Part shown: positions 1 to 34,620 of the stretch, piece by piece
How positions within the stretch are numbered: the first letter of the stretch is position 1
Layout of the letters: every line of letters begins with the position of its first letter
Source of the DNA: a virus
DNA: 34,620 nt
Virus record (IMG/VR): IMGVR_UViG_3300022748_000033
Location: 1 to 34,620 of that record
Reading direction: 5' to 3' (one strand)
The notes under the pieces: model-generated
What the model was told of the DNA's origin: nothing
The model's input: the letters and a program-made list of their open reading frames with translations, nothing else
The model's database searches: none
Position numbers and translations under genes: made by a program

Positions 1-148
1 GCGCATCGATAACCGCTTCAACACAAGCAGACAGGTCTGCGTACTTTGAGCGAAAGTGAGGATTCGTTGAGGACTTGAGCGCAGGGCCAAATGCCTTCTG
101 TGCTTTAACAAATGCTTGGGCGACTTTTGCGCCAATGACTGCTTCCAT
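1..148 (-). CDS. erf: ERF-type single-strand annealing recombinase, N-terminal part (cut by window edge)
   Basis: This is the first 49 codons of an ERF (essential recombination function) protein, a phage single-strand annealing recombinase. The segment around residues 19-46 (KAFGPALKSSTNPHFRSKY and the following ADLSACVEAV) has the conserved ERF N-terminal pattern of an N-P-x-F-x-S-K-Y-A-D-L motif before a helix ending in V-I-D-A. The ATG at 148-146 directly follows the TAA of the upstream 38-codon gene (TAAATG), so translation is probably coupled. The frame runs off base 1. The rest of the same protein is found at the right edge of the window (34188-34620), which implies that the two ends are neighbours. 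Family assignment is from recognised motifs; the joining across the ends is inference. Confidence 0.85.
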   Translation of the reverse strand, partial: MEAVIGAKVAQAFVKAQKAFGPALKSSTNPHFRSKYADLSACVEAVIDA

Positions 149-265
149 TTATGCTCTCCAAACAAAAAGGTCAAGAAGCACCACACAGAGTGCGGTGAGT
201 GAAACTGCCCAAAGAGCGATGCGCTCCCAATTGGTTGGTTTTTTGTAGTGTTCAATATCAAACAT
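149..265 (-). CDS. 38-aa single-span membrane micro-protein
   Basis: This is a short gene with a strong Shine-Dalgarno site (GGAGGA about 6 nt before the ATG at 265-263). The product is 38 residues: a polar, basic N-terminus (about residues 1-15, ending WERI) followed by one hydrophobic helix (about residues 16-36). The start overlaps the end of the preceding 59-codon gene by 8 nt and the stop abuts the erf ATG, so it sits inside the leftward early operon. Function is unknown. The charge pattern suggests a cytoplasmic N-terminus. The ribosome site and tight packing are seen directly; membrane location is inferred from hydrophobicity. Confidence 0.7.
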   Translation of the reverse strand: MFDIEHYKKPTNWERIALWAVSLTALCVVLLDLFVWRA

Positions 266-437
266 TTGAGTCCTCCACAAATTTAGAAAGTTCGGCAATG
301 AGTTGTTTAATTTGGTCTTGAGCCAGATAGGTGGAGGCGTGTGCGCCTATCTTCCAAATTGAAAAGATGACTTCACCACACTCGTAACTTTGAATGTTGA
401 TGGTGTCGGATTCGTAGGCTTTGATTTGTGTTTCCAT
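258..437 (-). CDS. Small hypothetical protein, 59 aa, early leftward operon
   Basis: The product starts METQIKAYESDTINIQSY and has a mixed N-terminal half that could form beta strands, then an amphipathic C-terminal helix (about residues 40-55). The ATG at 437-435 is preferred because GAGGA lies 6 nt upstream; an in-frame TTG four codons earlier would put the ribosome site inside the gene. It follows the 30-codon gene by 8 nt and overlaps the next small membrane gene by 8 nt. I do not recognise the family. Being one of the first genes behind the leftward promoter suggests early expression. Confidence 0.65.
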   Translation of the reverse strand: METQIKAYESDTINIQSYECGEVIFSIWKIGAHASTYLAQDQIKQLIAELSKFVEDSNV

Positions 438-445
438 AATGTTCC

Positions 446-538
446 TCAAAAGGGTGAGTCCTCAAAGTTGTCGGGATTGAATGGTGGGATGGATCGCCTC
501 GGTGGGATCGGGGCTGGTGGGAAAGGCCATGTGTGCAT
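446..538 (-). CDS. 30-aa proline-rich peptide ending in an SSB-like acidic tip
   Basis: This is the first gene behind the leftward promoter. AAGGAG lies 5 nt before the ATG at 538-536, and the TGA is 8 nt before the next start. The 30-residue product is very Pro-rich (residues 5-22) with two Arg, and ends N-F-E-D-S-P-F. That end resembles the C-terminal tip of bacterial SSB (acidic residues followed by P-F), which docks many replication and recombination proteins. No OB fold is present, so it cannot bind ssDNA like SSB. It could act as a decoy or tether for SSB partners. The ribosome site and tail are seen directly; the function is inference. Confidence 0.6.
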   Translation of the reverse strand: MHTWPFPPAPIPPRRSIPPFNPDNFEDSPF

Positions 539-583
539 TGATGCTCCTTAAAGACCGCTTGCGTTGCGCTACGGCATGGAGAG

Positions 584-612
584 AATGTTAACACAATTAA
601 ACAATCCGTCAA
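584..612 (-). promoter_or_regulatory. Leftward early promoter (sigma70-like)
   Basis: Read on the minus strand there is TTGACG (612-607), a 16-nt spacer, and TAACAT (590-585). With a 17-nt spacer the -10 would read AACATT. Transcription would begin near 577 and give a leader of about 40 nt before the 30-codon gene at 538. It is the only good promoter I see for the leftward early genes, including erf, and faces away from the Cro-like gene. Confidence 0.6.
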
Positions 613-674: not shown

Positions 675-839
675 ATGACAAAAGATCAACTAGTCCAACT
701 CGCTGGCTCACAAGCCAAACTCGCCAGGATTCTCAAAATCAGCCGTGCGGCTGTGAGCATCTGGAAACAGAAAATCCCCCCGCTCAGGATGTATCAACTC
801 AAAGAATTGAGACCCGAGTGGTTTAAGGCCAAAAATTGA
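675..839 (+). CDS. Cro-like repressor (YdaS/DicC-type HTH)
   Basis: This 54-residue DNA-binding protein has the single helix-turn-helix typical of Cro/YdaS repressors. A first helix with G-S-Q-A-K-L-A (residues 11-17) is followed by turn and recognition helix K-I-S-R-A-A-V-S-I-W (21-30), and then the I-P-P-L-R-M-Y segment (34-40) that ends these folds. It reads away from the leftward promoter and beside a palindrome it may bind, so it probably controls both divergent units. The ATG is preceded by CGGGG but no true Shine-Dalgarno. No partner CI-type repressor is seen nearby. The fold call is confident; the operator assignment is inference. Confidence 0.8.
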   Translation: MTKDQLVQLAGSQAKLARILKISRAAVSIWKQKIPPLRMYQLKELRPEWFKAKN

Positions 840-33129: not shown

Positions 33130-33357
33130 TTAAAAAGGGAAATCTTCACTGTCGGTCTTTTCTTTCTTTTCAAGGTCGTAGCAGTTCGCCCAACCCGACC
33201 ACCCACCCTCAATTAAGGGAATGGTGTCCAACTTGATCTTCAAGTTTTCGTTATCGTCCACAAAAACAGAACCAATCGTCTGGTAACGCTTTTTTTCCTC
33301 GCCAGAACGGTTTTTATAGACCCCAGTCACCACCACAATGTTTTTGAATCTTTGCAT
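33130..33357 (-). CDS. Small protein with SSB-like C-terminal tip, 75 aa
   Basis: The first 58 residues are beta-rich (I-V-V-V-T-G-V-Y, R-Y-Q-T-I-G-S-V-F-V, L-K-I-K-L-D-T-I-P-L), then a charged linker leads to the end D-S-E-D-F-P-F. This end closely resembles the SSB C-terminal tip. The body might be a minimal OB-like fold, but a complete OB fold is usually ~100 residues, so that is uncertain. It follows the exonuclease gene with one base between stop and ATG, in the recombination module, and so may be a phage SSB-like adaptor. AAAGGGAAA is in the tail coding region. Confidence 0.65.
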   Translation of the reverse strand: MQRFKNIVVVTGVYKNRSGEEKKRYQTIGSVFVDDNENLKIKLDTIPLIEGGWSGWANCYDLEKKEKTDSEDFPF

Positions 33358-33358
33358 T

Positions 33359-33973
33359 TCAGACTTTCAGTTTGTTAAGTTTTTCAATTTTGGCGTTCAG
33401 TTCCTCAAGAAATAACGCCACCTCACCCTCCAAATACGCAACCATTTGCGTATCTAGCTCCACTCTTTTGACAAAGAGTTGAAGACCTTCGTCCATTCGT
33501 GGGTCAAAACTCACGAAATCGCACCACTGACGCTGGGTACAGGCCATCTGCCACTGCATCTGGATGTTGTACTTTTCTGGGACTTTTTGATCCAACAAGG
33601 TTTGAATGTGAGTCGCCGTGTTGGGACACTTGATCTCCACCAATCCAAAAAGCCCCACCAAGCCATCAGGAGACGCTCCAGAGCCTTCAATTCTTGGATG
33701 CAATATCAACCCCACCTGCTCCACCAAAACATCGGCATGGGACTCATAAGCGGCCCGGGCAAAAGGTTCTTGCTCAGTCCCCCATTGCATTGCAGCGTTT
33801 GTGAAAGACTCTGCAGGTTTTCCTGTCATGCGTTCGCAAACGAGTTGAGCCATGTAGTTGTCACGGCTGGCTGAGTAGCCTGATTTGGTCTTGGCAACCA
33901 CATCTGCCACACGGCTGGCGGTGACTTTCCCGCATCGAGCTTGAAACCATTCTGGTGTTCCTTGTTCAATCAT
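33359..33973 (-). CDS. YqaJ-type (lambda-exonuclease-like) recombinase exonuclease
   Basis: The 204-residue protein has the YqaJ motifs: M-I-E-Q-G-T-P-E-W-F-Q-A-R (1-13), K-V-T-A-S-R (16-21), W-G-T-E-Q-E-P (64-70), the catalytic G-A-S-P-D103-G and L-V-E113-I-K115, and Y-N-I-Q-M-Q-W-Q-M (about 135-143). It should digest one strand from a DNA end, 5' to 3', to make ssDNA for ERF. Active residues are complete. The ATG overlaps the previous gene by 4 nt. This is the Red-alpha-like partner of the ERF annealase. Confidence 0.9.
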   Translation of the reverse strand: MIEQGTPEWFQARCGKVTASRVADVVAKTKSGYSASRDNYMAQLVCERMTGKPAESFTNAAMQWGTEQEPFARAAYESHADVLVEQVGLILHPRIEGSGASPDGLVGLFGLVEIKCPNTATHIQTLLDQKVPEKYNIQMQWQMACTQRQWCDFVSFDPRMDEGLQLFVKRVELDTQMVAYLEGEVALFLEELNAKIEKLNKLKV

Positions 33974-34191
33974 GCTTTCGCTCCCAGTTGTTCAGCAATT
34001 CTTTCAATCGCTCCTATACAACTAATGTTCAGTGCTGCTCGAATCAATCTTATTGACTCATCAATCATTTCGTCATAGGTTCCGGGGTCAGCATCTTTAA
34101 TTGCCTCTAGCGTTGCTTTGGCATCTTCCAATGCGTCAATGTCTACACTGTTGAGTTTCAACAGCAAATCAATGTCAGATTGGATGTTCAT
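33970..34191 (-). CDS. Small helical protein between erf and exonuclease, 73 aa
   Basis: The product begins M-N-I-Q-S-D-I-D-L-L-L-K-L-N and is acidic and helical, without known motifs. The ATG at 34191 overlaps the erf stop (ATGA), and its own stop overlaps the exonuclease start, so the three are translated together. A coupling role in the recombination complex is possible; nothing more is visible. Confidence 0.65.
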   Translation of the reverse strand: MNIQSDIDLLLKLNSVDIDALEDAKATLEAIKDADPGTYDEMIDESIRLIRAALNISCIGAIERIAEQLGAKA

Positions 34192-34620
34192 TTCTGCTCC
34201 AGTTGTTTTTTCTTGCTGTCTTTCTTTGCAATGACTTGCTTTTGCCACATCGCCTCACCTTGGCAAGCAGCGTATGCCGCCTTATATGTTTTCTGAAGCT
34301 CATCAAGTGTCTGGCAATCATCCATCGCAACCATGAGATCAGCAATCTGGCTTTCATTGACGCTGGATTTGATTTCAGTGCGCCTTGATGCAAGGTTGCC
34401 ATCATCGTCTTCAGGAGCAATCCCACAGGCCGCCATGAGGCTGTAACGCCTTGCGTATGTCATCGCAGAACCATAACCCTGCGGGTCTTGTTTGGCGGCT
34501 GGAACATGAAGCAAACCACAATCAATCACTTCACCAGACTCGTGCATAAACACAGTCTCAACCATCACGCCATCACTGCATTCGTAAGTTTTCTGAATAA
34601 GAGCGATGTTGTTGGCGTTG
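34188..34620 (-). CDS. erf: ERF-type recombinase, C-terminal part (cut by window edge)
   Basis: The frame enters from the right edge reading N-A-N-N-I-A-L-I-Q-K-T-Y-E-C, then V-M-V-E-T-V-F-M-H-E-S-G-E, then D-P-Q-G-Y-G-S-A-M-T-Y-A-R-R-Y-S-L and the signature E-D-D-D-G-N-L-A. These are the conserved ERF core motifs, and they directly continue the N-terminal piece at 1-148. The first full codon is at 34619-34617, so one further base is needed to join base 1 to 34620 in frame; a CTC Leu would restore the family pattern. Joined length would be about 193 residues, normal for ERF. The last ~50 residues are Lys/Gln-rich. The stop overlaps the next ATG. Confidence 0.88.
   Translation of the reverse strand, partial: NANNIALIQKTYECSDGVMVETVFMHESGEVIDCGLLHVPAAKQDPQGYGSAMTYARRYSLMAACGIAPEDDDGNLASRRTEIKSSVNESQIADLMVAMDDCQTLDELQKTYKAAYAACQGEAMWQKQVIAKKDSKKKQLEQK

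Follow-up and report, generated by a model that had tools for sequence, protein, structure and literature searches.

The 30-residue gene and its expression signals

The stretch of DNA analysed here, referred to as the window, covers 34,620 nucleotides (positions 1 to 34,620 of the IMG/VR virus record IMGVR_UViG_3300022748_000033), and its minus strand carries, at positions 446 to 538, an open reading frame (ORF) for a microprotein of 30 residues whose C-terminus reads FEDSPF. Comparison with other viral contigs places this peptide in an undescribed family of phage microproteins, widespread and unannotated, that we call the WPFP peptides, a name coined in this analysis. The gene and the features upstream of it are as follows.

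446..538, minus strand: 30-residue microprotein MHTWPFPPAPIPPRRSIPPFNPDNFEDSPF, with ATG at 538-536 and TGA at 448-446; supported by the sequence and by family conservation
544..549, minus strand: Shine-Dalgarno sequence AAGGAG of the microprotein, 5 nucleotides before the ATG; read from the sequence
585..612, minus strand: promoter-like match TTGACG-16-TAACAT with a TG before the second hexamer, about 47 nucleotides upstream; a consensus match only
675..839, plus strand: divergent gene for a P22-Cro-like repressor (E 3.7e-11), which marks the early control region

No open frame is present on the plus strand at 446-538. Promoter-like matches of this kind were found twice where 0.3 were expected, and the one at 585..612 is a candidate for the leftward early promoter. 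The AAGGAG of its own, the promoter-like match upstream and the divergent P22-Cro-like gene behind it together indicate that the microprotein gene is the first of a leftward early operon. A single short ORF with an acidic-P-F end is not above chance when taken alone; its conservation in about 190 relatives is. The initial annotation had proposed a real, stand-alone peptide gene at the head of an early operon, and this is borne out by the translated-looking gene with its ribosome site, the promoter-like match and the family conservation. The possibility that the ORF is the frameshifted tail of an upstream protein was considered and rejected, as no in-frame upstream fusion was seen and the gene has its own ribosome site in the window.

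The WPFP peptide family and its two conserved ends

Degenerate DNA scans of viral contigs returned 46 stretches with the C-terminal motif and 105 with the N-terminal motif, and a wider N-terminal pattern returned at least 120. The family counts given here and below cover the members among the matches listed, and because many of the contigs are related they represent non-independent events, so that significance values are indicative. On this basis the family has at least about 190 members. A typical member reads M(T/N/S)WPFPPFPNP-linker-FNPDN(Y/F/H)E(D/E)(A/S)P-x-stop and is 29 to about 40 residues long (possible distant members reach 55), with both ends kept. The window peptide has the WPFP head, a variable linker and the E-x-(A/S)-P-x C-terminus, and when it is aligned with the family the P-F-P is invariant and the W, E and P are near-invariant.

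Two homologues of the window peptide (E 6e-7 and 6e-5) were recovered by a search of 50 related viral records, and the homologue MWPFPPFPNPMDKGTKRPKFNPDNYEESPR lies exactly between the genes for the annealing protein ERF and a YqaJ exonuclease. A further member, MTWPFPTQLPIAPANGAVPKFNPENHEDALL, is located in an unannotated gap of MW202701, a complete environmental phage and the one complete public phage record where a member was found. A tblastn search with the window peptide against the annotated phage collection gave no match, no model in Pfam, PHROG or NCBIfam matches the microprotein, and a text search of the literature for the motif found no mention. Two strict matches to the N-terminal motif in bacterial genomes are chance occurrences, both without the tip. 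Well over a hundred contigs of uncultured phages thus carry a strongly conserved protein of about 30 residues for which no family model exists, and genuine microproteins under selection, composed of two short linear motifs, are being overlooked.

All complete matches to the C-terminal motif have an N-terminal W/Y-PF-[PQ] upstream (WPFP except for one Tyr-for-Trp variant), and an E-(D/E)-(A/S)-P-x end is found in nearly every match to the N-terminal motif. The two ends therefore go together, each having been found without searching for the other. The N-terminal WPFP is the most conserved segment of the family, which contradicts the initial description of the peptide as only a linker plus a tip.

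The pattern of substitution shows a protein-coding gene under strong purifying selection. Across 101 unique sequences of 29 codons, the commonest length class, the ratio of nonsynonymous to synonymous polymorphism (pN/pS) is 0.16 overall, 0.035 in the FNPDN segment and 0.25 in the linker; the scan pattern pushes the N-terminal value (0.004) downwards, while the remaining codons are unbiased. All four codons are used for the Pro at position -2 and both codon boxes for Ser at -3, so the conservation acts on the amino acids. Furthermore, an upstream ATGA overlap forces the second codon to begin with A, and members with this overlap insert T, N or S before the Trp. That the Trp is kept in this way again points to selection on the head as protein.

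Several contigs depart from the common form. The loci L227, L244 and L270 are possible distant members of 47-55 residues, with a long basic linker, a WPFPPFPR head and an EEAPF end; given their different gene context they may be convergent or chance. At L257 and L271 (and in the truncated L236) an in-frame fusion joins the WPFPPFP head to a MSKEEVINAL-type protein that follows it, and the tip is lost. L128 holds two different microprotein copies about 560 bases apart, ending in EDAPW and EESPF.

Overlap with the next gene and the C-terminal tip

From the microprotein the leftward gene order is the 59- or 63-residue gene, the 38-residue gene, ERF, one ORF, the YqaJ exonuclease and a 75-residue protein.

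459..463, minus strand: GAGGA within the E-D codons of the tip, 9 nucleotides ahead of the next gene's in-frame TTG start; supported by the sequence and the family pattern
258..449, minus strand: next gene, function unassigned, 63 residues from TTG 449 (overlap TTTTGA) or 59 residues from ATG 437
149..265, minus strand: 38-residue protein (MFDIEHYKKP...) with a hydrophobic segment, kept ahead of ERF in relatives
1..148, minus strand: N-terminal part of the ERF single-strand annealing protein (Pfam E 1.3e-23), continuing at 34619
34188..34619, minus strand: C-terminal part of ERF, a profile match
33359..33973, minus strand: YqaJ-family exonuclease (E 2.3e-31), with one further ORF between it and ERF
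33130..33357, minus strand: 75-residue protein ending in DSEDFPF, beside the exonuclease; SSB-type tail family

A search for relatives of the 59-residue protein found none. The two ends of the window (1 and 34620) fall within the ERF gene and, placed end to end, miss in-frame closure by one base; the genome is probably circularly permuted, a single base having been lost at the join. The proposal that the microprotein is the first product of the operon encoding ERF and the exonuclease accordingly stands in part: it is the first gene, and its membership of one operon with ERF and the exonuclease rests on reading across the junction, which assumes a circular or permuted genome, something very likely if not proven.

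Most members of the family end in NNx-TGA, with xTG serving as start codon for the gene that follows. An ATG overlap requires A as the third base of the last codon and so rules out Phe; the last residue in this class is Leu (65), Arg (24), Ile (20) or Val (15). Where the next gene starts with TTG, as in the TTTTGA class, the last residue is mainly Phe (TTT); a start 20 bases upstream goes with a final Tyr, and three members ending in Trp use a TAA stop. The last residue even switches within one backbone, as peptides with TPIP and MPVP linkers end in SPF or APF with TTG and in ALI with ATG.

The acidic residues are likewise entangled with the downstream gene. Glu at -5 is encoded by GAG in 149 cases and GAA in 26, compared with 35 and 40 for the other Glu codons of the peptide (Fisher p ~1.5e-9, relatedness ignored), and GAG-GAN provides a GAGGA ribosome site 9 nucleotides ahead of the overlapping start; 108 of the 124 members of the ATGA class have this GAGGA. 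In the APY class, where this site is not needed, the acid at -4 is replaced by Pro or Gln and the A-P-Y is retained. The GAG bias and the loss of the -4 acid suggest that translation signals account, at least in part, for the acidic character. More generally, when phage genes overlap, an acidic C-terminus encoded by the first may be owed to the ribosome site of the second and not to a binding motif.

These features could point to a cis-acting translational coupler or leader peptide that delivers ribosomes to the next gene through the GAGGA and the xTGA overlap, the peptide itself being inert in trans. We regard this as quite improbable. A purely cis role accounts for the GAG bias, the GAGGA and the overlaps, but not for the conserved amino acids, since WPFP, FNPDN and A/S-P are kept while synonymous codons are free. 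Four-nucleotide overlaps are, moreover, ordinary in compact phage genomes. A ribosome-arrest leader would have a fixed spacing to its stall site, whereas here the length varies, and the linker and downstream genes differ widely between members that share both ends, which is ill suited to a peptide acting in a fixed register.

The initial annotation had read the peptide as a free tail of the single-stranded DNA-binding protein (SSB), mimicking the C-terminal tip of SSB (SSB-Ct) and competing for or recruiting ExoI, RecO, RecQ, PriA or a phage annealase. The SSB-Ct of the bacterial protein resembles the window peptide in having a disordered Pro-rich stretch followed by aromatic and acidic residues, Pro and a final Phe. 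Recruitment of this kind has a precedent, as a phage SSB tail recruits the phage annealase Sak4 (PMC5928155). In SSB, deletion of the last Phe abolishes the interactions with partners, and basic residues hold the alpha-carboxylate in place (PMC10164576).

The acidic-(A/S)-P-hydrophobic end is indeed conserved: among 155 unique N-anchored peptides the residue at -2 is Pro in 144, that at -3 is Ala or Ser in 146 and that at -5 is Glu in 140. Conservation of the terminal acidic-P-F residues in relatives, on which the proposal had been made to depend, was however found for the Pro and largely not for the Phe. The last residue of the same 155 peptides is Leu in 67, Arg in 19, Ile in 17, Val in 16, Phe in 15, as in the window peptide, Tyr in 12 and Trp in 2. 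When the next start codon does not impose an A at the end of the last codon, the peptide mostly ends in F, Y or W, so an aromatic or bulky hydrophobic end seems to be preferred, with Phe included among these and not indispensable. The tip is free in the window peptide and in the great majority of members, but at least six contigs extend 3 to 12 residues past it (among them APVWTS, APLVKAQQGRPLP and APLCSPR), which would bury the carboxylate. The E at -5 and D or E at -4 are kept, yet their GAG-GAN codons are the same ones that form the ribosome site discussed above. Finally, the microprotein is a stand-alone ORF without an OB-fold domain, and it differs from SSB tails in its WPFP head, which is not found in them, and in the Ala or Ser at -3.

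The 75-residue protein of the same operon serves as an internal control. Both proteins have an acidic C-terminus ending in P-F in the window, but among the relatives of the 75-residue protein 67 of 70 have Phe at or very near the C-terminus (typical ends are DDIPF, DDVPF and DDDIDF), while the Pro varies. A fixed Phe with a variable Pro is what canonical SSB tails show, and the microprotein has the reverse. Several contigs hold both proteins, for example L125, where the microprotein ends in EESPI and the other in EDLPF, and L136, with EDAPL and DDIDF respectively. Furthermore, the 75-residue protein has a beta-rich domain as predicted by AlphaFold (pLDDT 78). Its fold has no match in the PDB, and so we do not name it an SSB; its relatives are only uncharacterised phage proteins. 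It is nevertheless the better candidate for an SSB-tail role than the 30-residue peptide. A strict SSB tail the microprotein is not, although it may use an SSB-tail-type pocket loosely, and on balance the free-tail explanation appears unlikely. A related idea is that of a stand-alone decoy made by the phage to imitate the bacterial SSB tail, its last residue being traded between Phe and Leu, Ile, Val or Arg depending on the next start codon; it is equally doubtful. If true, a single short piece of DNA would combine three functions, encoding a host-hub mimic while also supplying a ribosome site and a start codon.

A possible adaptor and its genomic setting

The best reading, which we hold with moderate confidence, is that the WPFP peptides are two-motif, disordered adaptors that act in trans in phage DNA replication or recombination. 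Fixed ends, M-(x)-WPFP(PFP) and E-(D/E)-(A/S)-P followed by a hydrophobic or aromatic residue, are joined by a linker variable in sequence and length. The Trp/Phe/Pro-rich head could bind one partner and the C-terminal tip a second site or a second partner, making the microprotein an adaptor or a competitor in trans. Host or phage DNA replication or recombination proteins are the most likely candidates for these partners. At the DNA level, four-nucleotide stop/start overlaps pack the gene into early operons, often with replication or recombination genes. The tip codons have a second job: GAG-GAN acts as ribosome site for the next gene, whose start codon is supplied by TGA together with the base before it, and this shapes the last residue.

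Genes found directly upstream of members, joined by TGATG or ATGA overlaps, include those for an SNF2-type helicase, ERF, polymerase A and DUF1376 proteins. At 127 of the 191 loci the same strand carries a gene for replication or recombination within 6 kb, a fraction for which no control set was scored. Phage early regions are rich in replication genes, and such a neighbourhood is weak evidence. Among the 80 ERF loci closest to that of the window, three carry the microprotein, which suggests that it is accessory and not part of the ERF machine. Disorder was deduced from composition, and a search of solved structures with the window peptide gave only a chance match. These last points, from the richness of early regions in replication genes onwards, count against the adaptor. 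A conserved acidic-P-F peptide directly upstream of ERF was found at none of the 80 loci, the relatives being located elsewhere. The "MTKDEAL" neighbour cluster, present at 130 of the 191 loci, was considered as a partner and rejected: single linkage had chained mixed small proteins together in it, and 38 of the 80 control ERF loci have it too.

Host takeover or counter-defence is a common role of small phage proteins (reviewed in PMC11323111), and the microprotein might have a target outside DNA repair, such as RNA polymerase, a protease or a defence complex. The early position, the small size and the accessory and mobile distribution among contigs would be consistent with this, but the repeated placement beside replication and recombination genes fits less well, and we consider such a role rather improbable.

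The P22 protein Arf (accessory recombination function, 47 residues) is likewise very small and encoded in a leftward early operon upstream of erf. It is acidic throughout, without WPFP or the tip, and comparison with the window peptide gave no local alignment and no sequence similarity. A small gene ahead of erf in a leftward operon is what the window shows as well, with the position varying in other members; Arf adjoins erf directly, whereas the window peptide is encoded two genes further upstream.
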